The position numbers and the translations under genes were made by a program. Positions 1,579 to 22,440 of a stretch of DNA of 40,091 nt are shown in pieces. The notes beneath the pieces were generated by a model. The model had not been told where the DNA came from, ran no database searches, and was given only the letters and a program-made list of their open reading frames with translations. The stretch comes from Eubacteriales bacterium (GTDB lineage: Bacteria; Bacillota; Clostridia; Lachnospirales; Lachnospiraceae), in assembly GCA_030533235.1 (NCBI GenBank), contig JAUNJN010000021.1:1-40091 (forward strand), given 5' to 3'. Every line of letters begins with the position of its first letter. The first letter of the stretch is position 1.

Positions 1579-1608
1579 AATAATCCTCCTTAAAATCGCA
1601 TATACGTT

Positions 1609-1637
1609 ATTTTAATATAGATACGAGCAATTTTCAA
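1609..1637 (-). promoter_or_regulatory. Candidate promoter for efp
   Basis: Minus-strand TTGAAA (1637-1632) and TAAAAT (1614-1609) are 17 nt apart in the short pepP-efp gap. It may give efp transcription in addition to read-through from pepP. No experimental support; based on consensus match only. Confidence 0.35.
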
Positions 1638-1648
1638 CCATTTTATTG

Positions 1649-2752: not shown

Positions 2753-2789
2753 AGTCTGATATCCTTTCTATCACATCCCAACCTACAAT

Positions 2790-2820
2790 GAAAAACCGGA
2801 GGATGCCACCACCCTCCGGT
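2790..2820 (-). terminator. Intrinsic terminator at the end of the pilus operon
   Basis: ACCGGAGG / CCTCCGGT form an 8-bp GC-rich stem around a 10-nt loop, followed on the minus strand by TTTTT. It lies 14 nt past the stop codon of the 1566-residue gene and separates the pilus operon from pepP. Confidence 0.88.
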
Positions 2821-2833
2821 CAGTAATTCATCA

Positions 2834-5800
2834 TTAAGTTAAATCAAAGAGATGTACTTTCTTTGTAACCTTAATCTTCTGGTAGGATTCATTTCCTTCT
2901 GTATCAACTACCTCAATTATGATGTACGTGTAATTGCCTCCGTATGCATCAAACATTTCCTTTGTCAGCTTTAAGCCCGGATATTGTGTTGCATCGATAT
3001 CATATAACGTACCGGCCTTTGCATCAAGATTACCTGCAATCATCTTATCCTTTTCATTGTTAAAGGCTAATGCCAGCTTTAACTCTTTCGGATCAGTCTT
3101 ATACAGGAAGCTCTTGTCAAGCTTGTAATAGATATTTACATAATCAATCTGCGTCTTTGCATCTACAGTAGCCTTAAATGAAAACTCAGGAATTTCATCT
3201 TTTTCCTCCAGCTCGTAGATATAACCATTGTCACCATCCGGCACAACGATGTCATTCTTCTCTTCTCCTGTTCCGTCAGAATAATCAAATACATCGATAC
3301 CCGGTTCTTCCGGCATAATGGATGAATTTGCTACGGAATTACAGATAATATTGATATACAAACGACGCTCATCATTGTTGTTCTTATTAAGACCTGTTAC
3401 TTTTGAATGTCCCGCACCACAATAATAGAAGTTTCCGCTACTGTAAATGAAGGCGTTATCAGAACCATCTACCGGAGATGCCGGATAAACTGTCTGATAT
3501 TCATTCTGGTAATTACTTGTCGTCAATGTATAAAGTGGCGTTACGTTCAAATCATCCGTATCAATCGCATATCCGACCGGATGTGTACCCGTAATCTTCA
3601 GCTTATCACTTAATGTGAATGGGAAGATATTTACTGCACATCGGTTATTGATAACCGCCTGATCAGTACCCGGGTTAAAGATGCCATTTGTTTGATCTGC
3701 AGCGTTCGCCCATTTAGCAACATGTGTCCAGTTGATAGAACCATACTTGTAGTAGCTACGCATACTGCCTGCAGCCGGATTTGACTGTCCTGCATCGGAT
3801 GACATTCTCTGTGTATCAGAATATGCATTTACACCTGCTGCATCCATAATTGCCGCTGTAATATTACCGGCTGTCGGATTATCCTTCAAACGACCAAAGC
3901 ACTCATGGAAGGTAATAATCTGTCCTCCCTTTGTTGCATATTCGTTCAATGCACCACATGCGTCCTTTGCAAGGTCATCATTACCAAAGTTCTCACATGC
4001 TCCGATTACAACAGAGCTGTATGAACCGGTAAGCCAATCCTTACCCTCTGTATTTAAGAAGTTGTACTTGTAAAGAGCCTGCATATAAGCATCCGTAAGC
4101 TCAATCTTCTTGTCGTTTGCTCTTGCCCACGTCTCGTATGAGTTCCACATCTCCTTTTCGTTCATTTCAAGTGCTGCATTTACTATATGTACGTTTCCAA
4201 ATGAACTGAAGAAATCATAGTAGCACTTCTCATCGAGCAATCTCTGCATTTCTTCTTTAAAGTAAACTACACTATTATTATAATTAATGCCCTGATCACG
4301 AATATGTGCAATTGCGGTTTCAACATTCGCTATTGCGGTGTTGTAATCGCTGCCCTTTACATAATCATCCAACGCCTTCTTCGCATTTGTTACTGCAAGC
4401 TCTGCTGCTGCAAGCTCTGTCAAATCACCGATTAATGGCGTATAGTCTGACTTAATTTTTGCATCCAGTGCTTCATACTCACGTGTAGTCATCATGTCAA
4501 TATGGAAATTATACATATCACTTAGCTCATCAGCGAAGTTCCAATCCCAATCATCGTACTCGCCCTTTGCCGGATCGCTGTATACCTCAGAACCTCCATA
4601 CTTGACAATACCAAACTTATGCTCATGCTTACCAATGTAAACCGCATCCATATCACTATTACTAATAATACCTTCATCGGTAATCGGCCTGCCATATGGT
4701 CCACCATTACCGAAATTTGATGTTAAGTCAGCACCCATATACATCGAACTATAGGTTCGGTATGTATCTGACCATGGATTTGTAACAATCGGATTCCACT
4801 CAATCGGCATATTGGCTCTCTGACACTCTGTACAGAACATCAGCGTTACACCCTGCTGTGGACCGTAATTGCATGTATAATCGACTTTTTCACATGGTAA
4901 AATCTCTAATACACGGACATCCTGCTTCTCTCCGTTTGGCTTAACATAGGTTGCACCGGTAGAGCTTGCAGTCATCTTTCCGCTTGAAACCTCAAGCTTC
5001 CAGTAAATAAGTCCGCCCTTGTACTCTGATAAACTATATGAAAGCGTACCGGAGCTGCTGGTATCCGTCTTTACTGCCGCTTCCTCAAATGCTCCATTGT
5101 TATTATGGTCGATATAAAGCTTTGCTGTATAGCTATCTGCACTCACATCAAACTTAAAATTAAGTGCTGTACTTGTAAGCTTTGTTGACTTGTCATACAG
5201 ATTATACTGTGCAGGTCTGCTTGTAACTGCCAAAAGCAGTCTCTTTGTATTATTATTATAAATTGTCCGTAAGGAATCTGCTGTGTCTGTATCAAATACC
5301 TCAACATAGCCCATCATGGAATCACCTAATCCACCCTGGCTATCCTTCACCGTCTTTGTCGGATCGAAATCTGATAAAACGTTGCTCTTTGATATATTAT
5401 CCGACAAGAACGAATACATCTTAGATCCTGATTCTACGGTTCCATCATTTACCGTATATGCCTGCGTTAATTCCTTTGAAATAATAACCGGCATACCTGC
5501 CTTTGCAAACTCGTTTAACTGCTTAAGATTGTAGGTTGATAAATCTCTCGGATTAAAGCGATCAACCGAGAAGAAAAACTCACCGCTTAAGCTTGTAAAT
5601 TTAATACCACCATTTCCAAGGAAGGAGAAGTTACGCACCTCTGCAAGCTCACCTTGTGATGTATAAATATAGGTTCCATTTGCAAGTGCACTACGGTTAC
5701 CACCAAGATATACCATATCATAGTTGCCAAGAAGCTCTGTATGATTTGCTGCAAACTCATCGACTGACATATGAACAACCTTTACATCGTCATATTGAAG

Positions 5801-7534
5801 TCCTAAAGCAGCTGCAACCTTTGCCTCGGATAACTCCCAAGCATAGTACTCTTTATCAGTTCCAACCTGTTCCTTTGTCATACCACTTGGAGCCATTGCA
5901 GTACCTTGTGTATAATATGTACCCTTTGATGCGGCAATGCTCTCATCAATCGGATATGCCGGTTGGATTTCAAGTACGGTAAATGAATTTGAGGAGCCAG
6001 TTGGTCCACCGATACCGCGATAAGACGAACTGTTAATCAAATCCGCAATCGGTTTACAGATAGATGAACTCTTGCTCGTCACCATCATGTTTACAGCAGA
6101 AGAGCTCGTTGGCATGATGTTTGGATAGCTTGCAACACCATCCACGGTTGCAACAAGATAATATAGCTGATGATATCTTGAATTTGCTGAGTCATCTACA
6201 TCACCATCACCGGCATCACCGCTACCCGGATTGCCAGGGGTTGTAGTCTGTGGTGCACCTGCCAATGAAGAATCATATACAATATGCATTTTTGCCTTCA
6301 TGGCAGCAACCAAACGATCATAATTGCTCTGACCGATTTCTGTTGTTTTACAATCCGACTCAATGACAATCAAATCATAACCATCAATTGCTGTTGTTGC
6401 AAAATCTGTAACCTTAATTGAATTTACTTCTACAAAATCCGGACGATAAGAATATCTGGTACTATATGCAAACTTCTGGAAATCAGTTGTAGAAGCAGTA
6501 TATACTGTACCGGTCGGAATGTATTCTGTCGTCTTATAAGCACCTGTATCATCAGGTCCATTTACATAATACTGTGTGGAATCAACCGTCGCAGAAGGAC
6601 CCAACAAATTTGCAGTCAGTGTTCCGGTCGTACCATCATTACTTACTACTAAAACTCTTGCCAGCTTACCCGCTTTTTCGAGCTTTCCTGCATTGTTTTT
6701 ATCCGCTTCCGGTAAATCCGCACTTGGGGCATTATAAAGCTGTGTCCATTTTTTCTGAGCAGTCTTACTGTTGATACCGATATATTTTGTGTTACCGAGA
6801 CCACCTGCTAAAAACGTCTGTGCAGGTGTTGTATTGACCCACTCATATGTGCTGTTATACACACCACTCGGTCCAAAATAATCATCAACAACATTTGCAA
6901 CTGTTGCATTTGTCGGTGCAGCAGATCCACCACTGTTTCCGCCGCCACCACCGGAACCACCGCCGGAACCTGCATTCGGACTATCAATGATAAATGGCTT
7001 GTAATCACCGATTGCATATGTATGCAACAGGTTATAAAGCTCTTCACCAAAATCATTATCTTTGTTATATGCATTATTAATATTACTGATATAGATGAAG
7101 TCAGCCTTTGCAATAATCTCAAGCTTATCTGCATCCTTCTCACCAACATCGGCAGCATTGAAATAATGATAATCAATCTTTGCCGGATCCATTACCAAAC
7201 TATTGTCTGCCGATTTGTTACCATCTAATACATAATTTGCAAAATCCCCGGTCTTTCCTGCTTCCGCAAATGTCCGGAACCCAGACTCCGTGCCGGAACC
7301 AATCTCAACAATATGATAATACATATCATCTGCGTTTGTATCATTTGCATTCATGATGATGTAATCAATATTCGTTGCACGAGCATATTCCGTTTCGTCA
7401 GAATCACCCTCTGCTAACGATTGTACCGGATCAGCAGCCCTATTTGCTTGTCTGTACGAAAGTGCTGTGGCGGCAATCGCCATAACGATAAGCACAGCCA
7501 TAGAACTAATTAACAGCTTTGTTTTTCTTTTCAT
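2834..7534 (-). CDS. Giant exported protein, last gene of the pilus operon (DUF5057-like)
   Basis: 1566 residues; exact function unknown. The N-terminus (MKRKTKLLISSMAVLIVMAI) is a signal peptide or membrane anchor, not a prepilin leader. A Gly/Ser linker with GGGSGGGGGNSGG follows at about residue 190. Two internal modules start with similar strands, FTVLEIQPAYP and VRVLEILPCE, typical of what I recall as DUF5057 proteins. Asp809 begins DHNNNGAFEE, a likely calcium-binding loop. A cysteine-rich patch (MFCTECQ) lies near residue 900 and a beta-rich domain ends the protein. No LPXTG or cell-wall repeat is seen. ATG start with GAGGGGGT upstream. It follows four minor-pilin-like genes by 18 nt and is closed by a terminator, so it probably works with the pilus, perhaps as tip adhesin in the place of PilY1. 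That role is inferred from position only. Confidence 0.7.
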   Translation of the reverse strand: MKRKTKLLISSMAVLIVMAIAATALSYRQANRAADPVQSLAEGDSDETEYARATNIDYIIMNANDTNADDMYYHIVEIGSGTESGFRTFAEAGKTGDFANYVLDGNKSADNSLVMDPAKIDYHYFNAADVGEKDADKLEIIAKADFIYISNINNAYNKDNDFGEELYNLLHTYAIGDYKPFIIDSPNAGSGGGSGGGGGNSGGSAAPTNATVANVVDDYFGPSGVYNSTYEWVNTTPAQTFLAGGLGNTKYIGINSKTAQKKWTQLYNAPSADLPEADKNNAGKLEKAGKLARVLVVSNDGTTGTLTANLLGPSATVDSTQYYVNGPDDTGAYKTTEYIPTGTVYTASTTDFQKFAYSTRYSYRPDFVEVNSIKVTDFATTAIDGYDLIVIESDCKTTEIGQSNYDRLVAAMKAKMHIVYDSSLAGAPQTTTPGNPGSGDAGDGDVDDSANSRYHQLYYLVATVDGVASYPNIMPTSSSAVNMMVTSKSSSICKPIADLINSSSYRGIGGPTGSSNSFTVLEIQPAYPIDESIAASKGTYYTQGTAMAPSGMTKEQVGTDKEYYAWELSEAKVAAALGLQYDDVKVVHMSVDEFAANHTELLGNYDMVYLGGNRSALANGTYIYTSQGELAEVRNFSFLGNGGIKFTSLSGEFFFSVDRFNPRDLSTYNLKQLNEFAKAGMPVIISKELTQAYTVNDGTVESGSKMYSFLSDNISKSNVLSDFDPTKTVKDSQGGLGDSMMGYVEVFDTDTADSLRTIYNNNTKRLLLAVTSRPAQYNLYDKSTKLTSTALNFKFDVSADSYTAKLYIDHNNNGAFEEAAVKTDTSSSGTLSYSLSEYKGGLIYWKLEVSSGKMTASSTGATYVKPNGEKQDVRVLEILPCEKVDYTCNYGPQQGVTLMFCTECQRANMPIEWNPIVTNPWSDTYRTYSSMYMGADLTSNFGNGGPYGRPITDEGIISNSDMDAVYIGKHEHKFGIVKYGGSEVYSDPAKGEYDDWDWNFADELSDMYNFHIDMMTTREYEALDAKIKSDYTPLIGDLTELAAAELAVTNAKKALDDYVKGSDYNTAIANVETAIAHIRDQGINYNNSVVYFKEEMQRLLDEKCYYDFFSSFGNVHIVNAALEMNEKEMWNSYETWARANDKKIELTDAYMQALYKYNFLNTEGKDWLTGSYSSVVIGACENFGNDDLAKDACGALNEYATKGGQIITFHECFGRLKDNPTAGNITAAIMDAAGVNAYSDTQRMSSDAGQSNPAAGSMRSYYKYGSINWTHVAKWANAADQTNGIFNPGTDQAVINNRCAVNIFPFTLSDKLKITGTHPVGYAIDTDDLNVTPLYTLTTSNYQNEYQTVYPASPVDGSDNAFIYSSGNFYYCGAGHSKVTGLNKNNNDERRLYINIICNSVANSSIMPEEPGIDVFDYSDGTGEEKNDIVVPDGDNGYIYELEEKDEIPEFSFKATVDAKTQIDYVNIYYKLDKSFLYKTDPKELKLALAFNNEKDKMIAGNLDAKAGTLYDIDATQYPGLKLTKEMFDAYGGNYTYIIIEVVDTEGNESYQKIKVTKKVHLFDLT

Positions 7535-7552
7535 TATGCTCTTACCCCCTCT

Positions 7553-8563
7553 TTACTTTTTTGCGCGCAATACATAAGTGTTACGCGTATTAATCAATCC
7601 ACTTGTTACATATGTCATATTTTTATCTGAGAAGTATAACTCTAAACCAAGTGCGTTTTTGCCTTTATCCACATATAAGACGCAGCCAGGTGCTGTTGCC
7701 TCTTGTGTAGATCCATCCGGCATTGTAAAGCTCATCGTGACATAATTAAATGCTTCCGTATACTTGTATGGTTTCAAGGTTGCAATCCCTCTGGATGAAG
7801 AAAAATCATTTAACTTATCCATGAACGCATATTCACGTTCCAGATACATGTTCTTTTCATCAAAGGTGTACACACATCGCTCGGTATCATTTACATTGTA
7901 AACAGGTATTCCGTCGGAGGTTTCCACCTCTTCTTCGGTTGTGTTACCTTCTCCATCCAATACCTCGCGCGTCTGATAGTCAATTACCACACTCTCACCG
8001 GTCAAAGCATTGACATTCGCTTCACCAAGCTTTAAATCCGAGCAACAGCTTTCGTCAATAGCAATTGCCTTATCCACGATGATTTGTATCGGATATAATC
8101 TTACTCCAGCAGGTAATTCATCGTAGGTTTTATATCCTTTTACATCCAAACAATACTTTTTAAGATAACCATTGATTAAATCATTCTGCTGATCGATGAC
8201 CTCATCTTCGTCCTTATCCTCATTTCGGAGGAAATAATACGGACCATCCAACGTCCTGTCTGCCGCATCTCCGGCTTCCAAAAAGGTTACTTTCGTATCT
8301 GCCGTAGTTGTTCCTTCTAATGTTCCGGATACAACATAGGCACAGATAATAATATTGTTTCCTGACATAATCGAGTCTGCAAGCTGATCATACACATCCT
8401 GTGCCGTGTTGTGTACATTGATGTCTGCCTTCGACTTTTTAAAATTCAAAACTCCGGTTCCCATAAAGGAGCTTACTGCAGTCATCAGAAATGCCAGAAT
8501 TGCTATGGCTATAATCAACTCAATCAGAGTGAAGCCACTATTACTTTTCATTTTTTGTTTCAC
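7553..8563 (-). CDS. Prepilin-like protein, PilW/GspJ type
   Basis: 336 residues with a class III prepilin signal: a 10-residue basic leader ending in Gly, then FTLIELIIAIAILAFLMTAV with Glu at mature position 5. The prepilin peptidase encoded at 16645-17394 should cleave after this Gly and methylate the Phe. After the hydrophobic helix comes an amphipathic segment (NVHNTAQDVYDQLADSIMSG) typical of PilW/GspJ pseudopilins and then a long beta-rich domain. The start is GTG at 8563 with AAAGGAGTG upstream; the ATG at codon 5 (8551) lacks a site of its own. It lies 17 nt after the FimT-like gene. The probable role is initiation or tip of the type IV pilus. The subtype is less sure than the pilin class. 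Confidence 0.85.
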   Translation of the reverse strand: MKQKMKSNSGFTLIELIIAIAILAFLMTAVSSFMGTGVLNFKKSKADINVHNTAQDVYDQLADSIMSGNNIIICAYVVSGTLEGTTTADTKVTFLEAGDAADRTLDGPYYFLRNEDKDEDEVIDQQNDLINGYLKKYCLDVKGYKTYDELPAGVRLYPIQIIVDKAIAIDESCCSDLKLGEANVNALTGESVVIDYQTREVLDGEGNTTEEEVETSDGIPVYNVNDTERCVYTFDEKNMYLEREYAFMDKLNDFSSSRGIATLKPYKYTEAFNYVTMSFTMPDGSTQEATAPGCVLYVDKGKNALGLELYFSDKNMTYVTSGLINTRNTYVLRAKK

Positions 8564-8580
8564 AGTTTTATCACTCCTTT

Positions 8581-9197
8581 TTATTTTGATTGATGGCTAC
8601 CGTTTTTGTTAACCTGAATGTAGGCAATCTGACCATTGCTTGATCTCTTATAGAAATCAAACCTTCCGGAACCACCTATGCATCTTCCGTTTCGGTTGTA
8701 TATGATATACACACCGTCTTCATCTATCTCATTTTCAACACCGTCTTCTCCGGTATAGGTAATCTTAACCTTGGAAGAAAAACCGGTTCCGAGATTTTTG
8801 CTACCGTTCTCACCTTCAAAGAAATAATATCTGTAGGTATTACTAAAGGCATCGCCTGCCTTCATCTCTACTGTGAGATCTGCGGTAGCAGCGGAATTAT
8901 AATAACCCTTTTTTGCATAATACTTGTCTCCGGATTTATAAACCTTCAGGCAAAAGTTTAATTCCGGATGTTTCTCTCCGTCAATGATACAAATCTGATT
9001 TTTTGACCTGGATATAAGATCCGCAAGCTCCGACTCAAAGCTTACGGCAGCCTCTCTGGCACGTGCAGAGCCTATCATCGACAAGGTAACTAACGATACG
9101 CCTGTCATAACAACAATAATAGCAATTGTGATAATAAGTTCAATTAACGAATAGCCTTTGTTGTTTTGTTGTTTCTTACGCTTACTCAGTAACCTCA
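8581..9197 (-). CDS. Prepilin-like protein, FimT/GspH type
   Basis: 205 residues from the ATG at 9197. A GTG seven bases further upstream (9204) keeps the frame but overlaps the ribosome site GGGAGG, which is placed 5 nt before the ATG, so the ATG is preferred. The leader is MRLLSKRKKQQNNKG, cut before YSLIELIITIAIIVVMTGVS, with Glu at position 5. The following helix (ARAREAAVSFESELADLISR) resembles FimT/GspH pseudopilins. The gene overlaps the end of the preceding gene by 16 nt, which suggests translational coupling within the minor-pilin block. It is likely a minor pilin that primes pilus assembly; subtype is inferred from length and helix. Confidence 0.85.
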
Positions 9198-12151
9198 TAG
9201 GCACCTCCCACGTTCTTCGTCCAGTTCTCCATGCTGACTACATCAGAGAATCCGATTGAATTCACGTTAACCATTGGCGTAATCTCACTTACGGTTTCTC
9301 CGCCTTCTCCTTCATCATCCTTTACGACGGAAGCATACTCTCTAAACAGCTTAAGGAAATACTTGCAATCCGTATCGTAAATACGCATGCACTGTCTCAT
9401 AATCTCTCGGCAGGTTGCAGGTGCTGCATTGATTTCACGCATATTCTTGCCTACATAAACCTTACCACCGGAGATAATAATACCTGTAAACCTGGTAACA
9501 TTATCACCAAATGATACGTCACCCTTTGTTACGATAATACCTGTCAGGTCTGCCGCGTCATCAATAACGATATCTTTATCACTTGCCCAAATCCGATATG
9601 TAATATTACCGTCACTTAATTCCTTTCCATCAATCGAATATCCCGTAGACGGAACTTCATCAAAGTTTTGAATCAGTAAATATTTGTTAAGCGGTGTAAT
9701 CGCACCCTCACCATATGCACCGATAACATCCTTGATATACTGCTTTTCCATATCACCGTTCTTGTAATGTGCAAGATTCCACTTTACATAATTGTATTCC
9801 ATCTCAAGATCGTTTGAAAAATTATATGCAGCTGCAATCAGATTTTCCGGTGCATCTGTAGTATCCGTCATATTATTAGTATATGGATAACCTTCGTCAT
9901 CACCACTTAACAGCGCACTGATTGCTTTATCACTATTCGGTGTTGACATCGTGAATGTATTACCCTTATTAACGGTAATCGCACCACTTGAATAAATGTT
10001 CGGATCAATCATTTGCCCATTTTCACTTGTTGTATAGCTAATCATTCCATTCTCAAACTCATCATATTTGGAAATATCAACAAGAGCAGGACTCGCATCC
10101 TCTTTCTGTGCCTCTTCTACATACTTATATGCAAAATATGACTGATATGCGTCCGCTGAATCACAAAGCTTCTTGATATCAACTACCTTCGCCTTTTGCT
10201 CCGTCGTTGCAGTTGTGCTATCTTCAATTGCTTCAAGCACTTCCCATGCCTTCACAAAATCAATAAATACATAATCACGTTCTTTGATTTCTGTTTTAAT
10301 CACCGGTAAATGACCATGGAAGATTTCCTCCGGGAACAAAACACTCATAAAGCAACCCTCACCCTGCAAGGATAACGGAATATCTACCGCGTCATAACCT
10401 CTTGTGCTATCTGACTCGGATTCTTCCCAGGTTGATACCGTATACAGCAACTGACTCGGCTTGTATGCGATACTTTCACCGGTCTTGTAATCTCTGATAA
10501 AATCTGTCTTGTTATCGTCGGTATATGGCAGATACGTATAGGTTGTTGTTTTAATTTTGTCGTCTGAAACCATTTCCGTACCATAACGTGACAGCTCTAC
10601 ATAGGCACGACCTGCAACATAGATGTTATTTGCCAACCCAAAGTCAAGCGTTGCATTCTGACCGTTTACAACAATTGCACTACTGTTAAAGTGTCCGCGA
10701 TTAAAGGTCTGTTCATTTTCGCCATCCTTTACTGTTATCTGGAACTTTGTCGGATCGACTGTGTCAAAGAATACTCTGCTGTCCCTTGATGTACCGTCTC
10801 CATAACCATAATATGAACCGCTTAATGTAAAGCTTGTTCCATCCGCATCTAATTGCATATCATCCTTGACAAAAAGATTCGCACGGATAATAGCCTGTGA
10901 ACCTGTAAAGACCTTCTTGTCCTCGGTTGAATTCTTATCATCATACTTGCTCATGCCACCAAGCACAACATCATCCGCCCAAATCTGCGGTAATGTACTA
11001 CCGGTTCTGCCGTAAACAACAAGATCTGAATTGTTCATAACTGCAAGAGAGCCCGGAACAATCACAGTATCTGTCATAATCGATACGTTGGAACCATCAA
11101 TGTATAATCCTGAATAACGACTATGTAGATTTTCTCCATTGAACGGCGCAAGCTCGATAGTTGTACTGCTCGGATTCGCATAATAATCATTCACATATCC
11201 TAATGAAGCCGAACGAACCGGATTGCCGTCTTTGTCCTCAAGCTGCTTGTTGGATACCTTTGAAAATGCATATTCAAACTTATAAGGATCTTCACCCACC
11301 GTATAGCTTCCCGTGATGACACCATCACTGTAGCTAAGACCGGTTACGGTTGTACCATCCTTGTTCTCGATTTTATCTGCAGTGTTTTCTGCAATACCAC
11401 TGTTATAGCTCTTGTTATAATAATCAGAAGCCGCATAGATATTACCGTTGATAACAAGAGGAACACCCTCTGCCTGCTTGATCTCAACGCCCATATCCGC
11501 AACCATAGCAAAATCGAACAATGCAGAATAATCAGCATCGGTTGTATTAAACTGTACCTCAAAATTCGGCTGACTGATTACGATGTCTGCACAAACAGTC
11601 TGTGTATAGGTTCCTCCTGCCTTCGATTTGTACTCCTGCTCTCTTGATACCGTAACATCCTTTAGAACAATACGGTCTGCCTGGCGTACAATACTAAGCT
11701 TTGATGCGTCGAGGGTAACCGTGGAATTGGAAATATATCCCTGCAGCGTTGTTGCAAGCTCTGCTGCACCACGCTTGAAATACTCACTGTTCATGATTTG
11801 TTCCATGAACTTATCCTTGAACATCTTGTTAGCTTCTGTGTTCGACAATGTTTTATACGTCTGAAGATCAGTATCATAACGTACCATATTCTCTACCGTG
11901 TATGCATACGCAGTTTTCATCTCTTCGATGGTCTGCATACCGACACCGGTGTATATTTCCTGCATGGCCTGCTCTACATAATAGAAATTATCCTTCGCAT
12001 TTAACTCCTGCTTCTTTAAATTATAAGCCGAGCCTGCAGCTGATAATAATGATCCTACTATAATACCGATAAACGATAGTGCAACAATAACCATAATAAT
12101 ACTAGAGCCCTGGTTATTTAGTTTTCTTTTTATCTTATTAATAATTTTCAA
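9182..12151 (-). CDS. Very large minor pilin-like protein, PilX/GspK type
   Basis: 989 residues, far above the usual 150-350 for this class. The leader MKIINKIKRKLNNQG precedes SSIIMVIVALSFIGIIVGSL, a hydrophobic pilin helix without Glu at position 5, as in GspK and some PilX-type proteins. A TTG start at 12151 is supported by GGGGGAG 6 nt upstream, inside the last codons of the preceding gene; its stop TAG abuts the TTG, so coupling is likely. The rest looks beta-rich, with stretches such as GSLAVMNNSDLVVYGRTG and GDVSFGDNVTRFTGIIISGG that suggest a beta-helix or bactofilin-like stack. No enzymatic motif was recognised. It is probably a tip or surface-exposed minor component, possibly adhesive; this part is inference. 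Confidence 0.78.
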   Translation of the reverse strand: MKIINKIKRKLNNQGSSIIMVIVALSFIGIIVGSLLSAAGSAYNLKKQELNAKDNFYYVEQAMQEIYTGVGMQTIEEMKTAYAYTVENMVRYDTDLQTYKTLSNTEANKMFKDKFMEQIMNSEYFKRGAAELATTLQGYISNSTVTLDASKLSIVRQADRIVLKDVTVSREQEYKSKAGGTYTQTVCADIVISQPNFEVQFNTTDADYSALFDFAMVADMGVEIKQAEGVPLVINGNIYAASDYYNKSYNSGIAENTADKIENKDGTTVTGLSYSDGVITGSYTVGEDPYKFEYAFSKVSNKQLEDKDGNPVRSASLGYVNDYYANPSSTTIELAPFNGENLHSRYSGLYIDGSNVSIMTDTVIVPGSLAVMNNSDLVVYGRTGSTLPQIWADDVVLGGMSKYDDKNSTEDKKVFTGSQAIIRANLFVKDDMQLDADGTSFTLSGSYYGYGDGTSRDSRVFFDTVDPTKFQITVKDGENEQTFNRGHFNSSAIVVNGQNATLDFGLANNIYVAGRAYVELSRYGTEMVSDDKIKTTTYTYLPYTDDNKTDFIRDYKTGESIAYKPSQLLYTVSTWEESESDSTRGYDAVDIPLSLQGEGCFMSVLFPEEIFHGHLPVIKTEIKERDYVFIDFVKAWEVLEAIEDSTTATTEQKAKVVDIKKLCDSADAYQSYFAYKYVEEAQKEDASPALVDISKYDEFENGMISYTTSENGQMIDPNIYSSGAITVNKGNTFTMSTPNSDKAISALLSGDDEGYPYTNNMTDTTDAPENLIAAAYNFSNDLEMEYNYVKWNLAHYKNGDMEKQYIKDVIGAYGEGAITPLNKYLLIQNFDEVPSTGYSIDGKELSDGNITYRIWASDKDIVIDDAADLTGIIVTKGDVSFGDNVTRFTGIIISGGKVYVGKNMREINAAPATCREIMRQCMRIYDTDCKYFLKLFREYASVVKDDEGEGGETVSEITPMVNVNSIGFSDVVSMENWTKNVGGAYEVTE

Positions 12152-13882
12152 CTAATACTCCCCCTTCGCTCCGTTTAATACAATTTTGTTGATGGAATCT
12201 TCAGCAGGTGTTAAATGTACAGATATCGTATAAAAACGGTCTGCCTTATTTTCTTCATCTGCCATATCTTTAAATGTACTAATATCATATTCCTTTACAC
12301 TACGTGCCGTACCCTGCTTGAAATAATCTGAATACACCGAGATGTCCGCACACTGGAACTGCGCACCTGCCGTGTTAACATCACTGCTGTCCATATTTGT
12401 ATAGACATCGATCTGACCGGAAGTTGATGTATAATTCATGAAAATTTGTACCTTTTCTGTATTAGTAGCATACGCAAGGTCATCCTTTTCATTGTTTCGA
12501 TAGTAGGTTTTTCTACGTATATCAATTGTATCCCGAACTGCTTTTACTTCGTCCGCACTTCCATTTTTAATCTTATCGATTTCAGATGGAGTTGCATAAG
12601 TCAACAAATAATCCTCATCCGAAAACTTAGCTGTTGAATCTGCACCACTTAAGTACCGATGCGCAGCATCCCATTTTGGCTTAATAAGATACATCTTGAT
12701 ATCCTGTGCCGTCTGATTGTCTAACAAAATATAATCCTGCGCTGCATATTCCACTCCCTGTCCGCTCGTATACTCTGTCGAAAGCGGTTGATACTCAAGG
12801 TATATATATGGAACCTTTGCATCCGGGTCAGCAGGATCATAATAAAATTTCTGACTATACGCATTATACGTAACCTGTTCATGTGCATCTAAATAACCGG
12901 TCTCGTAAATTACATCTACCGTAACATCATAATAATTCGGATACTTTGTACTTGATGTATCTTCTTTTTCGCTAACCGATACAACAAGCAGCTTCTTTAA
13001 TCCATCTAAATATCCGAAGTCATCAATATAGCTCAATGCATCCTCATCCGTCTTGCCCATTTCAATCATCCACTCATCCGGATGTTCGTTTCGAAGCGTT
13101 TCCATCGCTCTCGCATAAAGCTCTGCTGAAGCCTGCTTGTCAAAATCCGTTGCAAATCCTGTAATCAGCGCAACACCCTCGCTGTTAAGACTATGCACAT
13201 TACCTGCGTCTATCTCATTCGGATTATCAATCACATCATTTGAAGACTTTACACAAACAATTCCTCGGATATATTCATTTGCAGAATCATACAATACATA
13301 ACTACCTTCATTTGTACGTGTGAATCCGGCCGCTAAATCATCTGAAACAACATCAGGTGTTGTAAGTCCCTCCGGAAGATCGTATGCAATCCGATAGGTA
13401 TTTGTCTCACTGCCAACCGTAAACTCTGTTGCCTTTAACTGTGCTGTCAAATCATCGAGATATACCGTACGGTTATACTTTGTCCGTTTGCTTCCGATGT
13501 ATTCGTCGTTTAATGTGAATTTCATGACGTTATACGGAACTTTACCAATCGGAGATGAATCAATCGTATACACACCGGAGGCGTCCTTGCTTGCAACATA
13601 AATTTCACAGGCATCCGCATCCTTCATCTCAATCGGTGTGTAGGTTGTCGTATGGATATTTCCCGAGCCTGACGTTGACCGAAGCTCCGTAAGACTCGCA
13701 TTCTTAAAATATTCCAATACATATTGAGCATTCTCGTTTGCTTTTTGCTGTTCCTTGGAACGACGATTTGTACGCATCGTTCCCGCAAACTGATTGATAA
13801 TCGGTATCAACAGTACGGACAGTATGGCGATGGCTATGATGATTTCAATCAAACTGAAACCTTTATTGTTGTTTTTTGCCAT
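12152..13882 (-). CDS. Large prepilin-like protein, PilV/GspI type
   Basis: 576 residues. The 8-residue leader MAKNNNKG is followed by FSLIEIIIAIAILSVLLIPI with Glu at mature position 5, a clear prepilin peptidase site. The next segment (NRRSKEQQKANENAQYVLEY) resembles PilV/GspI proteins. The remaining ~500 residues are a large extracellular region without a motif I recognise, several times longer than typical PilV. ATG start with GAGAGGG 8 nt upstream; 15 nt after the pilO-like gene and directly abutting the 989-residue gene. It is the first of four consecutive minor-pilin genes. Function in initiation or tip complex is inferred. Confidence 0.85.
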   Translation of the reverse strand: MAKNNNKGFSLIEIIIAIAILSVLLIPIINQFAGTMRTNRRSKEQQKANENAQYVLEYFKNASLTELRSTSGSGNIHTTTYTPIEMKDADACEIYVASKDASGVYTIDSSPIGKVPYNVMKFTLNDEYIGSKRTKYNRTVYLDDLTAQLKATEFTVGSETNTYRIAYDLPEGLTTPDVVSDDLAAGFTRTNEGSYVLYDSANEYIRGIVCVKSSNDVIDNPNEIDAGNVHSLNSEGVALITGFATDFDKQASAELYARAMETLRNEHPDEWMIEMGKTDEDALSYIDDFGYLDGLKKLLVVSVSEKEDTSSTKYPNYYDVTVDVIYETGYLDAHEQVTYNAYSQKFYYDPADPDAKVPYIYLEYQPLSTEYTSGQGVEYAAQDYILLDNQTAQDIKMYLIKPKWDAAHRYLSGADSTAKFSDEDYLLTYATPSEIDKIKNGSADEVKAVRDTIDIRRKTYYRNNEKDDLAYATNTEKVQIFMNYTSTSGQIDVYTNMDSSDVNTAGAQFQCADISVYSDYFKQGTARSVKEYDISTFKDMADEENKADRFYTISVHLTPAEDSINKIVLNGAKGEY

Positions 13883-13897
13883 AAAACCAACCCTCTC

Positions 13898-14971
13898 TTA
13901 ATAAACCTTCACTGTTCCTGTCTTGCTACCCATTGAAAATCTCGGCGATACTGCATCATCACCGTCAACCTTTACAAACACAGGAAGCTTGGTTGCATTT
14001 GTAATGTTGAGCTTTACGCTGTTTTTGTCGTCGCCGTCTACACGAGCAGCTGACTTTACATAAATCTTTACATCTTTTCCAACTAATTCAACTGTATAAT
14101 CTTTATCTCCGATCGCATACTTTGCATAATTTTTGCCATCCTCCTCAAAGATCTGTACAGCAACCTTTACAACATCGTTATCATTGCTTGTAACATTTGT
14201 GTTATCTGCCCCTGCAGAAACAACAACACCTGCTGCGGTATCGTTACCGGCCTTGTTTAATGTAATCTTGATATCGTTTGTTGTCTTGATAACTTCACCG
14301 TTATCCGCATCATATGCAAAGTTTGTATTTGCAGCAGCGCCATCACCGCCGATAAACATGTTGTCTACGCCTGTCTGAACATCAAGGTCAAGTGTATCGC
14401 CTTCTCTGCCGCCGCCTGCAATCGCATACGCATTCATGGATACACTACCGGATGCTACATCATTCTCCGCATCATAAGAAATGTTGATGGAAGAAATATT
14501 CATACGATACTGATAATTCATAATATAATCAATGTAATCCTTTACGCCCTCATAATTACCCGTATAGCTGATTGGAAGTGACTGTGTATAGCACACATAA
14601 TCACCATCTGCACCGCCTAAGGTATAGAACTGTTTTGGCTGTCCTAAGCCTACAGACGGAATCTGGAATTCACCATTCTGGGAATCCTCGATGCCCTTCA
14701 TAAACATAACCGTAAGCTCCTGATCAAGTGTTGCAGGGAAATCCTGTACAATCTTGTCAAACTCGGCATAATAGGCCTTTGTCTTCTCGATATACTCGTC
14801 TCTATGCTTGTTTTTTTCCTGTAAATCCGCAAGCTTTTTCTCTAAGCTCTCGGTCTCAGACTTTAAGCTATCGGTTGTATCCTTGTTTGGCTTGTAAACA
14901 TACATGTATACACCGCCGACAATTAATACACATAAAAATACGATAATAATCTTAATATTGTTTCGTGACAT
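13898..14971 (-). CDS. pilO: PilO-like alignment-subcomplex protein with C-terminal extension
   Basis: 357 residues. One membrane helix (about 7-26, IKIIIVFLCVLIVGGVYMYV), a coiled coil (about 33-70, SLKSETESLEKKLADLQEKN), then a segment resembling the PilO periplasmic domain (FMKGIEDSQN...GNYEGVKDYIDYIMNYQYRM). This matches PilO, which dimerises with PilN and aligns the assembly machine. PilO is normally about 200 residues; here roughly residues 190-357 form an additional acidic, beta-rich domain rich in Asp, Asn and Gly. ATG start with GGAGGGG upstream. It follows the pilM-pilN fusion by 15 nt, as pilO follows pilN elsewhere. The PilO assignment rests on topology and order; the extension is unexplained. 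Confidence 0.75.
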   Translation of the reverse strand: MSRNNIKIIIVFLCVLIVGGVYMYVYKPNKDTTDSLKSETESLEKKLADLQEKNKHRDEYIEKTKAYYAEFDKIVQDFPATLDQELTVMFMKGIEDSQNGEFQIPSVGLGQPKQFYTLGGADGDYVCYTQSLPISYTGNYEGVKDYIDYIMNYQYRMNISSINISYDAENDVASGSVSMNAYAIAGGGREGDTLDLDVQTGVDNMFIGGDGAAANTNFAYDADNGEVIKTTNDIKITLNKAGNDTAAGVVVSAGADNTNVTSNDNDVVKVAVQIFEEDGKNYAKYAIGDKDYTVELVGKDVKIYVKSAARVDGDDKNSVKLNITNATKLPVFVKVDGDDAVSPRFSMGSKTGTVKVY

Positions 14972-14986
14972 GTTGCATCCCCTCCT

Positions 14987-16609
14987 TTACTCAGCTGTCT
15001 CTTCTGCTGCTTCTGCATCGCCTGAAACTGTATCAACGTACGGATTTAAGTCCACATACTTTGCAGTCACTGAAAATGTAAATGTTGCTTCGCCTGTTTC
15101 CGCATCAACGGATTTTGAATATCCGGATACATACGCATCGCTGATGCACGGAATTGTCTTAAGCTGCATCATAAACTCTGCCATACCTTCGTAGCTGGAT
15201 GATACAGCCGGGATGTTGATACCGGAGTTCGAGGATGAAAAGCCGGTAATGTATACACAAGTCGGAATCTTGCTCTCTAACTCATCAATACACATACGCA
15301 CATTTTCGTTTAACTGATAGGTGGTTGCATACATTGTGACAATATCTGTATATGTATTTTTTGCCTTATCATGGTCTGCAATTACCTGCTCAATGTCTGC
15401 TATCTTGTCAATCTCATGCTGCACATCGTCTTTCTTTTCCTGTGCGTCATTTTTCTGCTTGATAGACATAAAGCTTACTGCAGCCGCAGCAATTGCAACA
15501 ACAACCAAGCCCGCTACATAAATCGCAAGGCTCACGCCTGTTTTCTCCTTCTTCTTTGCAACGTCTAACGGCAGGAAATTCATCGGTGCAAACGTTGCAC
15601 CAATCGGTGTAACGAGATATACCGGATTGTATACCTTCAAATCAATACCGGAATCAAACTTTACATTCAACAGTGAATCCATAATACGTGTATTGACATT
15701 TAACTGAATCTTGAACAAACCATCGATGCCTCGAATCAACGCGCCATCACCGGTAAGAAGGACTTCCTCAATCGGCTTATCTGCATTCTTGGATGCATAG
15801 AAGTCCATAACACGTCCGATATTGTTAATCAGATAACGGAACGCACCGGTTGCCTCATTGTCATCAAAATCAACGGTAATAATCTGATCATTCTGAAGTA
15901 ATGTCATGGCGGTCGTTGCATCAACGCCCTTGTCGTCCATAACAACATTGACTACGGAATTTGTACCATATGGCACCGTTCTTTGAAGCAGAAGGTTTTC
16001 CCCCTGCACGATATTTAATACAGTTGACTCACTGCCGAGCTGAACAACCATGGTTGTCGTCTGTGGAGTCGTCTGGGTCTTAATCAACTGGAACATTGCA
16101 TTACCGATATAATCAAGTGATACAACGTTAAGTCCTGCCATCGCACCTAAGTCATAGTAAGATTTTACCATATGACCCGGAGCTGCCACAGCAAGTACAC
16201 GATACTGCTTGTTGCCCTCCGCATCTGTTACCGTCTCAAGTACAGAATGCGATACAACATAATCTTCTATGTTTACAGGGAAATATTCCTGTGAGTTCGC
16301 ATTAATAATTCCTCTGATTTTGTTCTCCTTTACAAAAGGAACCATAACCTCTCTGTTTACAATCTTGGTTGAGGATAATACAAATACTGCATTTTTGTTA
16401 TGAATGCCTCTTGCTGTTAACTCCTCACGGATTGCATTTGCAATTTTTTCCGGTTCCTTGATGACACCATCCTCGTAAGAGTCCTCCGGTGTTTCTAAAA
16501 TGATGACATTATGTACGCTGCTCTCCTTTTTCGGAGCGGCTGTCATTTCAACGATTGTAATACTTTCATTTGTGATATCAATGGATAACACTTTACTAAT
16601 CTTTGCCAT
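14987..16609 (-). CDS. PilM-PilN fusion, pilus alignment subcomplex
   Basis: 540 residues. Residues 1-340 are an actin-like ATPase of the PilM type (KVLSIDITNESITIVEM at the N-terminus, VVQLGSESTVLNIVQ as second phosphate-type loop, LLTGDGALIRGIDGLFK near the adenosine site). Residues 343-347 read MNFLP, equivalent to the INLLP motif at the PilN N-terminus that binds PilM. A membrane helix follows at about 358-382, then a coiled coil (QEKKDDVQHEIDKIADIEQV) and a small C-terminal domain, about 197 residues in all, the normal PilN length. The two are normally separate genes. ATG start with GGGAGG. Flanked by pilD and the pilO-like gene. The cytoplasmic PilM part would sit against the membrane and link to the PilB/PilT motors. 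Confidence 0.88.
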   Translation of the reverse strand: MAKISKVLSIDITNESITIVEMTAAPKKESSVHNVIILETPEDSYEDGVIKEPEKIANAIREELTARGIHNKNAVFVLSSTKIVNREVMVPFVKENKIRGIINANSQEYFPVNIEDYVVSHSVLETVTDAEGNKQYRVLAVAAPGHMVKSYYDLGAMAGLNVVSLDYIGNAMFQLIKTQTTPQTTTMVVQLGSESTVLNIVQGENLLLQRTVPYGTNSVVNVVMDDKGVDATTAMTLLQNDQIITVDFDDNEATGAFRYLINNIGRVMDFYASKNADKPIEEVLLTGDGALIRGIDGLFKIQLNVNTRIMDSLLNVKFDSGIDLKVYNPVYLVTPIGATFAPMNFLPLDVAKKKEKTGVSLAIYVAGLVVVAIAAAAVSFMSIKQKNDAQEKKDDVQHEIDKIADIEQVIADHDKAKNTYTDIVTMYATTYQLNENVRMCIDELESKIPTCVYITGFSSSNSGINIPAVSSSYEGMAEFMMQLKTIPCISDAYVSGYSKSVDAETGEATFTFSVTAKYVDLNPYVDTVSGDAEAAEETAE

Positions 16610-16644: not shown

Positions 16645-17394
16645 TTAATTCAGGTACCAGCTTACAAGCTGCTCACCCCATATCATTGCTATATATACGC
16701 CCATACTAAGGTACGGACCAAAGGAAAGTACATGACTTACCTTTTTAATAGCCATCCTTGTCAGATGCACTACCGAACCTATGATACAGCCTAACAAGAA
16801 TGCTACAATATTAAGCTGCCAGCCTAACAGTAAGCCGGTTGCTGCCATAAGTTTTATGTCACCGTCTCCTATCCCACGTCCCTTTGTAACAAGCCACAGT
16901 AGTAGTAGAAAACCGCTGACCGCAAACAAACCGATTACATACTGACTCCAGTTACGATAATCTGTAACCAGACGAATCAGTCCTAATATTAGGATGAAAA
17001 TATTAAATCCCAACGGGATTTCCTGTGTGCGCCAGTCTATGACGCTCAGTGCCAATAAGGCGGAAACCGACAGGCAGTAAAGAATTGTCTCTACGGAAAG
17101 ACCATATACGAGGAAAATCCCTACATAGAGTATACCGTTCAAGCCCTCCACAATCGGATACTGAATCGATATATGTGCTTTACAGTGCCTGCACCTTCCC
17201 CTTAAAAATAAATAACTAAACAGCGGAAACAATTCGTACCAAGAAAGCACATGTCCGCACGACATACAATGAGAACGCTTCAAGGTAATACTCTCGCGAA
17301 TCGGAAGCCGTAGAATAAGTACATTCACAAAGCTGCCAATCACTACACCGTACAGTCCGAATAAACTACATAATATTAATCTGATACTATCCAT
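16645..17394 (-). CDS. pilD: Prepilin peptidase / N-methyltransferase
   Basis: This A24 aspartic peptidase cleaves class III leaders after Gly and methylates the new N-terminus. The 249-residue multi-span membrane protein has the methylation-domain zinc cysteines C43xxC46 and C68xxC71 and the catalytic aspartates Asp120 (VIDWRTQEIP) and Asp177 (GIGDGD). It is the only such enzyme in the window and should process PilA and the four minor pilins downstream. The ATG at 17394 has AAAGG only one base away, an unusually tight ribosome site, but no better start is available without losing the first helix. It lies after the pilA terminator and 35 nt before the pilM-pilN fusion. Confidence 0.96.
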   Translation of the reverse strand: MDSIRLILCSLFGLYGVVIGSFVNVLILRLPIRESITLKRSHCMSCGHVLSWYELFPLFSYLFLRGRCRHCKAHISIQYPIVEGLNGILYVGIFLVYGLSVETILYCLSVSALLALSVIDWRTQEIPLGFNIFILILGLIRLVTDYRNWSQYVIGLFAVSGFLLLLWLVTKGRGIGDGDIKLMAATGLLLGWQLNIVAFLLGCIIGSVVHLTRMAIKKVSHVLSFGPYLSMGVYIAMIWGEQLVSWYLN

Positions 17395-17493: not shown

Positions 17494-18165
17494 TTATTGG
17501 TAGTAGCTAGATACCTCAGGAACAAGCTGGAAGTCTGTACCGAGATCATTATTACTCTTAAGATCATCGTCCTTACCTAAAACAGGCTTGTAACTAATAT
17601 CTGCTGGCTTTGTTCCATTTGTACATACATAAACTGAGATTTCACCACCTGCAGATACTGTAGCAACGAAGCACTCTGGCTTATTAGCTGCTGCCTTATC
17701 CTTCGGCTTAGAAGCGTTCTTCTTGTACTTGCACTTAGGCATCTTCTCACCAATGTTTGTGGCAACTTCCTTCTGAATAGCAGCTTTTACAGCAAAAGCG
17801 AGACCTGCATCTTCACCGAGTTCACCTGACCAATCTTCTGATGTGTATACTGTTACACAGTTAGCAGAGTTGTCTGTACCTGTTGATGATGTAGTAAGCT
17901 TTACACCCGGCTCAATAACAAGTACGCCTGTGAAATCACCACCAGTACCTGGAGTTGCAGAAGTAAGATATTCATACATCTGCTCGTTACCGAGTGCTGT
18001 CTCAACAGCTGTCTTAATTGCTTTTGCAGAAGTTACGTCGTTTGACTTTCTGGACTTGTCGATATAACGAATCAAAGCAGGAGCGATTGCACCGGCAAGG
18101 ATTGCCATAATCGCAATTACGATGATAAGCTCAACAAGTGAGAAACCTTTGTTTGTTTTTTTCAT
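17494..18165 (-). CDS. pilA: Major type IV pilin
   Basis: The preferred start is ATG at 18165, giving 223 residues with the short leader MKKTNKG; an in-frame start 45 nt upstream would add a 15-residue lead lacking a ribosome site, whereas AAGGAG lies 9 nt before 18165. The mature protein begins FSLVELIIVIAIMAILAGAI with Glu5, the classic pilin helix, followed by DKSRKSNDVTSAKAIKTAVE. The globular part has Cys residues (KMPKCKYKK, PECFVATVS, SVYVCTNG) that could form a disulfide. It stands alone between pilC and a strong terminator, as expected for the most expressed subunit. PilA is polymerised by PilB and depolymerised by PilT. Confidence 0.94.
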   Translation of the reverse strand: MKKTNKGFSLVELIIVIAIMAILAGAIAPALIRYIDKSRKSNDVTSAKAIKTAVETALGNEQMYEYLTSATPGTGGDFTGVLVIEPGVKLTTSSTGTDNSANCVTVYTSEDWSGELGEDAGLAFAVKAAIQKEVATNIGEKMPKCKYKKNASKPKDKAAANKPECFVATVSAGGEISVYVCTNGTKPADISYKPVLGKDDDLKSNNDLGTDFQLVPEVSSYYQ

Positions 18166-18243
18166 AGTTTTTCTCTCCTTTATATTATATTTATTTGATA
18201 AAGCCGGCATCCTCGCCTACCGGCATATATCCACTTATGTAGC

Positions 18244-19446
18244 TTAGTAGTTGTCAACGGCGTCGTACATACTAAGCATCGGTGAGTAAATCGCAATAAC
18301 GATACCACCTACAACGACCGCCATAAGCACGATAATCATCGGCTCCATCATAGCAGTCAAAGCATCTGTTGCAGCATTTACTTCCATCTCGTAGTACTCT
18401 GCAACCTTATCCATCATATCTTCGATATTACCTGTCTCCTCACCAATCTTAGTCATCTGAGGAAGCATCGTCGGGAAGATATCCATATCACGTAGTGGTT
18501 TGGAAAGCGGAACACCCTTTGCAATCTGATTTCTCGCATCCAATAAACCATCCCGGATAATCCGGTTATTCATCATCTTGGCAACCTGTTCTACCGCATC
18601 AATGAGCGGGATACCGGATGCCATCAGGGTAGAAAGTGTACGTGCAAACGTCGCTGCCGCAGACTTAATCGTCAAATTACCGAAGAGCGGCATCTTAAGC
18701 CCTATCTTCGCATATACAAGTGAGCCACTCTCTGTCTTGCCAATCCACCTAAATAAGAACACAAGTGCAACAACGACAAGTATAACAACCCAGCCCTTTG
18801 TCTGTAAGAACTTACTCAAATCGACTAACATCTGCGTCGCCTTCGGAAGCTCCGTACCCATATCCTCAAACATATCTGCGAATGTCGGGATAACCTTAAT
18901 CAAAAGAACGACAACAACCGCGATAACGACACACAGGATAACGATCGGATAAGTCATCGCACCCTTAACCTTTGACTTTAACTTGTTCGCATTTTCAAAG
19001 TGCGTTGTCAAACGTTCAAAACATACCTCCAGGTTACCGGACATCTCTCCGGCCGCCACCATGTTAATCATAATCGGCGGGAACACCTTTGGATTTAACT
19101 TGAACGCATCTGCCAAGGTACCACCCTTTTGTACATGAGCCTGTGCCTCCTGCAGTGCACCCTTCAATGTCTTGTTATCCAACTGCTCGGACAACATCTC
19201 AAGTGCTGTGATAATCGTAACACCGGCATTTAAGATTGCAACAAACTGTTTACAAAAAACTGCCAGATCCTTATCCTTTACTTTCTTGTTAATCTTAAAT
19301 CCGCCTGCGGACTGCTCCTTTAAATCCTGGATAATCAGTCCTTCGCTACGAAGCTTCTCTTTTGCCTTTTCTTCGTTGACGGCCTCGATGGTGCCCTTCT
19401 TGTTTTTACCGGCCTTATCCATCGCTTTGTAGTTATACTGTGCCAT
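18244..19446 (-). CDS. pilC: Type IV pilus inner-membrane platform protein
   Basis: 400 residues, the normal size for PilC/GspF. The N-terminus MAQYNYKAMDKAGKNKKGTI is typical, and two T2SSF domains follow (about 68-190 and 270-395) with membrane helices such as VILCVVIAVVVVLLIKVIP and a final PMIIVLMAVVVGGIVIAIYSP. The repeated motifs FPPIMINMVAAGEMSGNLE and FPTMLPQMTKIGEETGNIED mark the two halves. PilC couples the ATPases to pilin extraction and insertion. ATG start with GGAGGAG 5 nt upstream. It is separated from pilT by 144 nt holding a good promoter, so pilC-pilA and later genes may be transcribed apart from pilB-pilT. Confidence 0.96.
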   Translation of the reverse strand: MAQYNYKAMDKAGKNKKGTIEAVNEEKAKEKLRSEGLIIQDLKEQSAGGFKINKKVKDKDLAVFCKQFVAILNAGVTIITALEMLSEQLDNKTLKGALQEAQAHVQKGGTLADAFKLNPKVFPPIMINMVAAGEMSGNLEVCFERLTTHFENANKLKSKVKGAMTYPIVILCVVIAVVVVLLIKVIPTFADMFEDMGTELPKATQMLVDLSKFLQTKGWVVILVVVALVFLFRWIGKTESGSLVYAKIGLKMPLFGNLTIKSAAATFARTLSTLMASGIPLIDAVEQVAKMMNNRIIRDGLLDARNQIAKGVPLSKPLRDMDIFPTMLPQMTKIGEETGNIEDMMDKVAEYYEMEVNAATDALTAMMEPMIIVLMAVVVGGIVIAIYSPMLSMYDAVDNY

Positions 19447-22400: not shown

Positions 22401-22440
22401 ATGCAATACCTCTTTGTTTTTCGAATTTGTGTTGAAGAAA

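Follow-up and report, generated by a model that had tools for sequence, protein, structure and literature searches.

Contig JAUNJN010000021.1 of a member of the Lachnospiraceae (Eubacteriales bacterium, GenBank assembly GCA_030533235.1) was analysed over 40,091 nucleotides (nt), and this whole stretch is called the window here. Its minus strand carries a type IV pilus gene cluster in the order pilB-pilT-pilC-pilA-pilD-fused pilMN-pilO-like-V-X-FimT-W-large gene. An earlier note on this DNA had read the last five genes as prepilins of PilV, PilX, FimT and PilW type followed by a gene for a large exported protein, and all five open reading frames (ORFs) are present between positions 2834 and 13882. 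The large protein, a giant of 1566 amino acids (aa) that matches the family DUF5057, most likely fills, judged from its sequence, the role of PilY1 on this monoderm pilus, but with a modular head unrelated to PilY1; a short conserved tail at its C-terminus probably keeps it on display at the tip. The block and its features are as follows.

12152..13882, minus strand: PilV/GspI-type minor prepilin, 576 aa, Glu5 present (N_methyl, PF07963, E 3.8e-8)
9182..12151, minus strand: PilX/GspK-type large minor prepilin, 989 aa, without Glu5 (mature N-terminus SSIIM)
8581..9204, minus strand: FimT/GspH-type minor prepilin, 207 aa, Glu5 present (N_methyl, E 1.6e-5)
7553..8563, minus strand: PilW/GspJ-type minor prepilin, 336 aa, Glu5 present (N_methyl, E 6.6e-9)
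2834..7534, minus strand: large exported DUF5057 protein, 1566 aa, proposed tip cap (PF16480, E 6.5e-17; conserved slot)
7430..7534, minus strand: N-terminal hydrophobic export signal of the large protein, about residues 1-35 (hydropathy scan)
4889..5545, minus strand: DUF5057 match, residues 664-882 (Pfam)
5075..5110, minus strand: EF-hand-like loop DHNNNGAF, about residues 809-820 (D.[DN].[DN][GS] at the site)
3326..3667, minus strand: most conserved module, residues 1290-1403, consensus THxQ...GNVTYxGAGHS...DE (alignment A5)
2837..2854, minus strand: C-terminal tail HLFDLT, residues 1561-1566, proposed docking strand (conserved in the family)

Recurrence of the gene block

Relatives were gathered in a first set of 28 fetched stretches and in a second survey of the best 80 of 140 confirmed matches, on named contigs; some genomes occur in both, and the titles in the second survey are mostly Lachnospiraceae, with some Clostridium, Eubacterium, Clostridiales and even Bacteroides. 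Anaerosporobacter faecicola and Eubacterium sp. MSJ-21 are among the cultured, non-pathogenic carriers. The full V-X-FimT-W-large order was found in 20 of the 28 first-set stretches, and because this order recurs in relatives the block is not a chance arrangement. Linkage to pilus genes persists in three other families of the class (L060 and L062 to L064): V, X and one prepilin gene precede the large gene in L060 and L063, the latter with an additional 1234-aa ORF, a 425-aa ORF and pilD lie between X and the large gene in L062, and V and X stand directly before it in L064. L066 starts inside the block, L067 is cut, and pilus genes are not visible in L065, whose match is below the family cut-off. 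One genome (G025, L057/L071) has a truncated PilC gene and, immediately after it, no more of the large protein than its C-terminal 652 aa, either a decayed cluster or an assembly error.

Four of the 80 named loci (L101, L133, L135 and L144) begin inside the large gene, leaving 76 that are informative. A PilW-type prepilin gene lies directly upstream of the large gene in 75 of these (73 by script, L136 read by eye, and L142 with an interrupted large gene), at a median distance of 19 nt and at most 76 (72 loci). The earlier note had pointed to a gene-order survey in Lachnospiraceae, and this one bears out the linkage; occurrences away from pilus genes were searched for and turned up rarely, with the large gene in L134 and with its conserved module alone in the genome G545 described below. 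In L134, the single exception among the 76, the large gene has a yifB-like gene on one side and a dprA-like gene on the other (both named by eye), and the pilB/pilT-type ATPases of that genome are on another contig.

Genes resembling yifB/comM, dprA and topA also follow the large gene within a few ORFs in 14 of the 80 loci (L119, L123-L127, L130, L132, L133, L135, L139, L140, L141 and L145; by eye and by BLAST to L134). This is a competence-type neighbourhood, and the pilus may also serve DNA uptake.

Minor prepilins

The V, FimT and W proteins of the window match N_methyl; X gave no N_methyl match, and its mature N-terminus lacks Glu5. Since matches of the window's minor pilins to the GspH, GspI and GspJ models all fell below the curated cut-offs, V, X, FimT and W were named by order, size and Glu5. 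At the named-contig loci, with the prepilin cleavage site placed by a simple heuristic so that residue 5 is a predicted one, mature residue 5 is Glu in 21 of 21 V, 72 of 73 FimT and 73 of 73 W proteins and in none of 67 X proteins; the sole FimT without it is that of L149, where the FimT slot fell on a PilX. The set therefore comprises three prepilins with Glu5 and one of K/X type without it, as expected of an H-I-J-K-type set. Tip complexes are capped by a subunit without Glu5, according to the part of a 2023 review used here (PMC10191384), and PilX of Pseudomonas, Neisseria and Myxococcus is described as lacking it (PMC7541494, in part); by these predicted residues, the pattern in the DUF5057 loci is that of a PilX-capped tip complex. 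A search of 35 PilX members gave no PilX_N match up to E 0.05, and the N-terminus of an X profile aligned with a Geobacter pilin only at 0.013.

Among complete ORFs of the 80 named loci, X measures 730-1209 aa (n=67) and V 339-507 aa (n=21), and V reaches 627 aa in the first set (L045). The description of two of these pilins as several times normal in size holds against Gram-negative minor pilins and fails among the relatives, where an X of 730-1209 aa is the rule; very large minor pilins in monoderms are already known (PMC6916266, in part). Six long PilW proteins scanned for grafted modules gave nothing over cut-off except N_methyl. A pairing of the conserved C-terminal NWxKN of PilX with the large protein was considered and rejected; NW or DW is retained in five operons that have no cap gene, so the motif is not cap-specific. 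In another pilus locus (L180, G107, reverse complement 1051-11949) the neighbour of pilT is a 3632-aa ORF that combines GGIAG-type repeats with an N-terminus like that of class III prepilins, a candidate giant modular pilin.

The large protein

The large protein scores 62.4 bits with DUF5057 (PF16480; curated cut-off 27.9), and no other family is above cut-off. DUF5057 is a family without an assigned function, and its name was found in no open-licence paper searched; neither was a paper describing such a protein. In two groups of relatives, 26 of 28 and 24 of 26 matched the model at E 0.01 or below, as did all 22 members of alignment A1 at E up to 0.5. T4P_PilY1 (PF05567) gave no match in the window's large protein up to E=1, which agrees with the earlier reading that a PilY1 propeller is missing; genome searches with PF05567 found it in 0 of 1 and 0 of 199 genomes (phylum), but no control genome matched either. 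N_methyl, the class III prepilin N-terminus, likewise found no match in this protein, and a search with the large protein located a single locus in its genome.

By simple scans of 76 aligned family members, the window included, 74 have an N-terminal hydrophobic segment, and none of the 76 has a C-terminal transmembrane segment or LPXTG motif, so that the hallmarks of a sortase anchor were not found. An EF-hand-like motif, D.[DN].[DN][GS], occurs at one conserved site in 53 of the 76 and is, in sequence, reminiscent of PilY1 calcium motif 1 (PMC13190605, in part).

Conservation is uneven along the protein. Mean pairwise identity is 0.45 in the module at residues 1290-1403, which retains His, Asp and Glu positions, and 0.22 and 0.18 in two head segments whose lengths range over 22-536 and 168-903 residues. 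The module is perhaps ThuA-like in sequence; the likeness consists of one weak Pfam match (E 0.042, in a single member out of 22) together with a motif, and membership is not claimed. Internal repeats in the head were given 77-82% by hhalign for D1-D2, D1-D3 and D3-D4b only, which is suggestive of alpha/beta repeats. Few of the members scanned carry inserted head modules: a ricin-type lectin in L130 (E 4.1e-15; below cut-off in L119), CBM26 in L128 (E 5e-9), Big_1 in L113, and a Listeria-Bacteroides repeat in 1 of 26. A PDB sequence search with alignment A4 found no match up to E=1, and the six PDB matches of A5 (nanobodies and lysozymes; best 2.9e-5, no stretch passing alone) were treated as chance.

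The C-terminal tail

The conserved C-terminal tail of the DUF5057 giants is new in this analysis. The consensus of the last five residues is L-F-x-L-T/N/D, and the C-terminal domain before them diverges; over the final six columns mean pairwise identity is 0.47, compared with 0.22 in the preceding domain. The first alignment has Leu at position -2 in all 22 members (the L047 sequence ended before its extension). With patterns composed after the tails had been seen, [LIVMF][FLWYHM]x[LM][TNDESYK] stands at the very end of 56 of the 79 large proteins that reach a stop in the second survey, and of 1 of 744 other ORFs at these loci. A stricter version, L[FLWYHM]xL[TNDE], ends 48 of the 79 and none of the 744, and a broader pattern matches 65 of the 79, yet 21 of the 744 as well. 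No minor pilin C-terminus (56 V, 73 X, 73 FimT, 73 W) has the tail pattern. Outside the family, a protein of G581 ends in LPELF and one of G239 in LPSLD.

A narrow pattern, LF[DN]LT*, which misses the tails of other carriers, G180 (same genus as the window's genome) included, gave 9 matches in 7 genomes; only 3 end a long in-frame ORF, all of them DUF5057 genes. The tail as a genome-wide sorting code is not supported for this pattern in these genomes. Tails with an extension occur in L083, L088, L094, L097, L099, L100, L104, L105, L106, L109 and L111, and several of the extensions end in DRxxFNI-like residues, perhaps a second strand.

Distribution, and operons without the module

The conserved-module (A5) profile matched in 47 of 200 family genomes and 9 of 391 class genomes. 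PilT was over its curated cut-off in 126 of the same 200, comprising 46 of the 47 carriers versus 80 of the 153 non-carriers; the PilT matches of these 46 reach E 2e-134 or better, and that of G040, the remaining carrier, is weaker, in a genome whose pilus contig begins within pilC. Because PilT is common among non-carriers too and one genome can hold several pilus loci and PilT genes, presence of PilT alone does not prove linkage. The module lies in a pilus locus in 8 of the 9 class carriers. The ninth, G545 (L169, G545:C11), has it in a non-pilus surface protein of 2159 aa, in which inspection by eye also showed a vWA-like stretch and a hydrophobic segment at the C-terminus; no pilus locus is visible on the 12-kb contig. 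The link of module and pilus is strong, yet, given G545, the module is not confined to pili.

Of 28 non-carriers with PilT at 2e-134 or better, 20 were fetched, and eight show the V-X-FimT-W block (L171, L172, L174, L178, L179, L182, L184 and L187); the remaining 12 stretches either stop short or show no such block after pilT. L171, L172 and L179 have an exported-looking protein of 918-1024 aa in the cap slot. These three have no Pfam match and were not found by a default search with the family profile; once all filters had been switched off, they ranked first to third among 357 proteins (E 1.1e-6, 3.9e-6 and 1.2e-5), the next best being a pilin-like ORF at 0.0012. L171 and L172 retain the tail at their C-termini (FFMLD and LFNLE, respectively), and L179 retains part of it (IKDLD).

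Other pilus genes of the window

Upstream of the block, and directly 3' of it, the window holds these features.

20682..22406, minus strand: PilB extension ATPase (named by eye; slot matched in relatives by BLAST)
19591..20643, minus strand: PilT retraction ATPase (NCBIfam TIGR01420, E 8e-143, over its cut-off)
18244..19446, minus strand: PilC platform protein (T2SSF, Pfam, E 1.6e-60)
17494..18210, minus strand: PilA-type pilin (N_methyl, E 1.4e-8)
16645..17394, minus strand: PilD prepilin peptidase (PF06750, E 2e-33; PF01478, E 1.5e-18)
14987..16609, minus strand: fused PilM-PilN (PF11104, E 1.5e-26; PF05137, E 6e-8)
13898..14971, minus strand: PilO-like protein (position and N-terminal helix; BLAST slot match in relatives; no curated family match)
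2794..2821, minus strand: terminator-like hairpin 3' of the large gene (12 pairs, 7 GC, then a T-run)

A terminator-like hairpin of 14 pairs lies directly 3' of pilA (window 17476-17443), and expression of pilA could be set above that of the downstream genes. The window's genome contains three further PilT-family genes over cut-off (C5:37315-38337, C38:25997-27016 and C63:24977-26011; L190-L192); on C5 a pilB-like gene and a pilin gene accompany it, and the gene on C38 looks like a lone pilT.

Discussion

We regard it as fairly probable that this locus encodes a monoderm, type IVa-like pilus with a four-pilin tip, on which the DUF5057 giant is docked by its tail on PilX and presents an adhesive head. 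The tip would be primed by a complex of V, X, FimT and W (I, K, H and J types, respectively), with the Glu5-less PilX-type subunit outermost, and the last gene of the operon would supply the non-pilin protein shown on it. Sec would export the giant, in which no anchor is recognised apart from the export signal, and its C-terminal domain and L-F-x-L-T/N/D tail would attach it to the tip, most likely by supplying PilX with an additional strand. The variable, modular N-terminal head, probably built of alpha/beta repeats and carrying lectin, carbohydrate-binding (CBM) or immunoglobulin-like inserts in some relatives, would then bind a surface or glycan while PilT retraction pulls. From the gene set and its order, the Glu5 pattern, the export-type N-terminus, the conserved tail and the modular heads of relatives we infer tip location, PilX contact, strand addition, adhesion and ligand.

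A close parallel is PilY1/PilC of diderm type IVa pili, a non-pilin tip protein that the 2023 review, in the part used, treats as a feature of diderm pili (PMC10191384). In both systems a large exported non-pilin protein with a variable N-terminal head and a calcium-loop-like motif is encoded with four minor pilins, among them a Glu5-less PilX. The window's protein differs in having DUF5057 in place of PF05567, in its monoderm host and in the order V-X-FimT-W-cap. Attachment of PilY1 by its C-terminus is itself modelled: for the Myxococcus proteins PilY1.3 and PilY1.1 the terminal residues (LQNVYELP and SKVLIYAP, respectively) are placed as a strand added to PilX (PMC11046646, in part), and models of this kind include Neisseria (PMC13190605, in part). 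The Myxococcus model was read after the tail had been found.

Other pili share parts of this arrangement. Streptococcus sanguinis also has a monoderm type IVa pilus with an adhesive tip (PilA/PilB/PilC), but its adhesive modules are grafted on pilins, and no non-pilin cap is described in the portions of the papers used (PMC10191384, PMC8179133). Clostridial minor pilins PilU, PilV and PilK of C. difficile are proposed as a tip complex, with no DUF5057 cap described in the corresponding part of that source (PMC9556784). In type IVb pili, CofJ and TcpF are secreted proteins that dock the tip minor pilins CofB and TcpB via a short terminal peptide (PMC9565799, in part); that peptide is N-terminal, whereas the conserved peptide of the DUF5057 proteins is C-terminal. 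The parallel with minor-pilin/PilY1 clusters that the earlier note had drawn is upheld by the same pilin types, the Glu5-less X, an exported giant last in the operon and linkage in 75 of 76 loci. Its suggestion that the complex was independently built fits the different head and sits less well with docking through a C-terminal strand, a mode that is possibly shared.

The CofJ and TcpF effectors are much smaller than the DUF5057 giants. As has been proposed for them or for type II substrates, the giant might be a pilus-dependent secreted effector or enzyme whose tail is recognised by the minor-pilin tip and which is pushed through the wall and released. The terminal docking peptides of TcpF and CofJ (PMC9565799) are a precedent, and the His, Asp and Glu positions kept in the most conserved module could form a site. 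We nevertheless think this unlikely: each operon holds a single such gene, the long ORFs ending in the narrow tail pattern in seven genomes were all DUF5057 genes, and the size and the lectin and CBM inserts suit a displayed adhesin. A protein acting at the base of the pilus, perhaps as a collar across the peptidoglycan, and kept in the membrane by an N-terminal helix that is not cleaved, would accommodate a hydrophobic segment present in 74 of 76 members and followed by an AxA motif in only 27. A head variable in length and modules, with lectin and CBM domains inserted, the absence of the protein from five of eight related operons and the conservation of its C-terminal tail make such a collar quite improbable. 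We give very little credence to the view that the giant is a surface protein of an ordinary kind, placed in the operon only by chance or for the sake of co-regulation; the L134 gene away from pil genes and the module in a non-pilus protein of G545 would be in keeping with it, but a prepilin gene directly upstream in 75 of 76 loci, the bias of PilT towards carriers and the pilus linkage in other families all speak against it.

Several observations weigh against a tip cap docked by its tail. An AxA motif follows the N-terminal segment in only 27 of 76 members and a lipobox-like motif in 2, so that, by sequence, this segment could stay uncleaved and serve as an anchor. Pfam recognises no binding module in the head of the window's protein. 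Eleven of the 79 tails (LF[ED][LM]T) carry an extension beyond, 3 end in other variants, and two distant pilus-linked relatives, G490 and G357, have no recognisable tail; of the two published PilY1 C-termini, that of PilY1.3 resembles the tail in register and that of PilY1.1 does not. Five of the eight operons without the module end at W, with no cap gene, which makes the cap optional and means that the pilus can evolve without it. For the proteins in the cap slot of the other three, hhalign supports L171 only (93%; 0.1% for L172 and L179), and by these figures and the filter-off E-values they are distant relatives of the large protein at best. Lastly, the carriers are related, so the counts are not independent.

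A wider proposal, which we advance tentatively and hold to be possible rather than probable, is that a C-terminal hydrophobic strand is a general plug for Glu5-less PilX. PilY1 and the DUF5057 giants would then be unrelated heads on the same plug, the tip an exchangeable socket, and head swapping a route to glycan-binding monoderm tips.

A well-studied monoderm pilus carries its adhesive domains on pilins instead, according to the part of the review used (PMC10191384). If the tip cap proposed here is real, about a quarter of the sampled family genomes (47 of 200) would bear a pilus with a separate giant tip protein, in some cases with lectin or starch-binding modules. The short tail would offer a test of how non-pilin caps are held, and adhesion of gut and rumen Lachnospiraceae would become testable.

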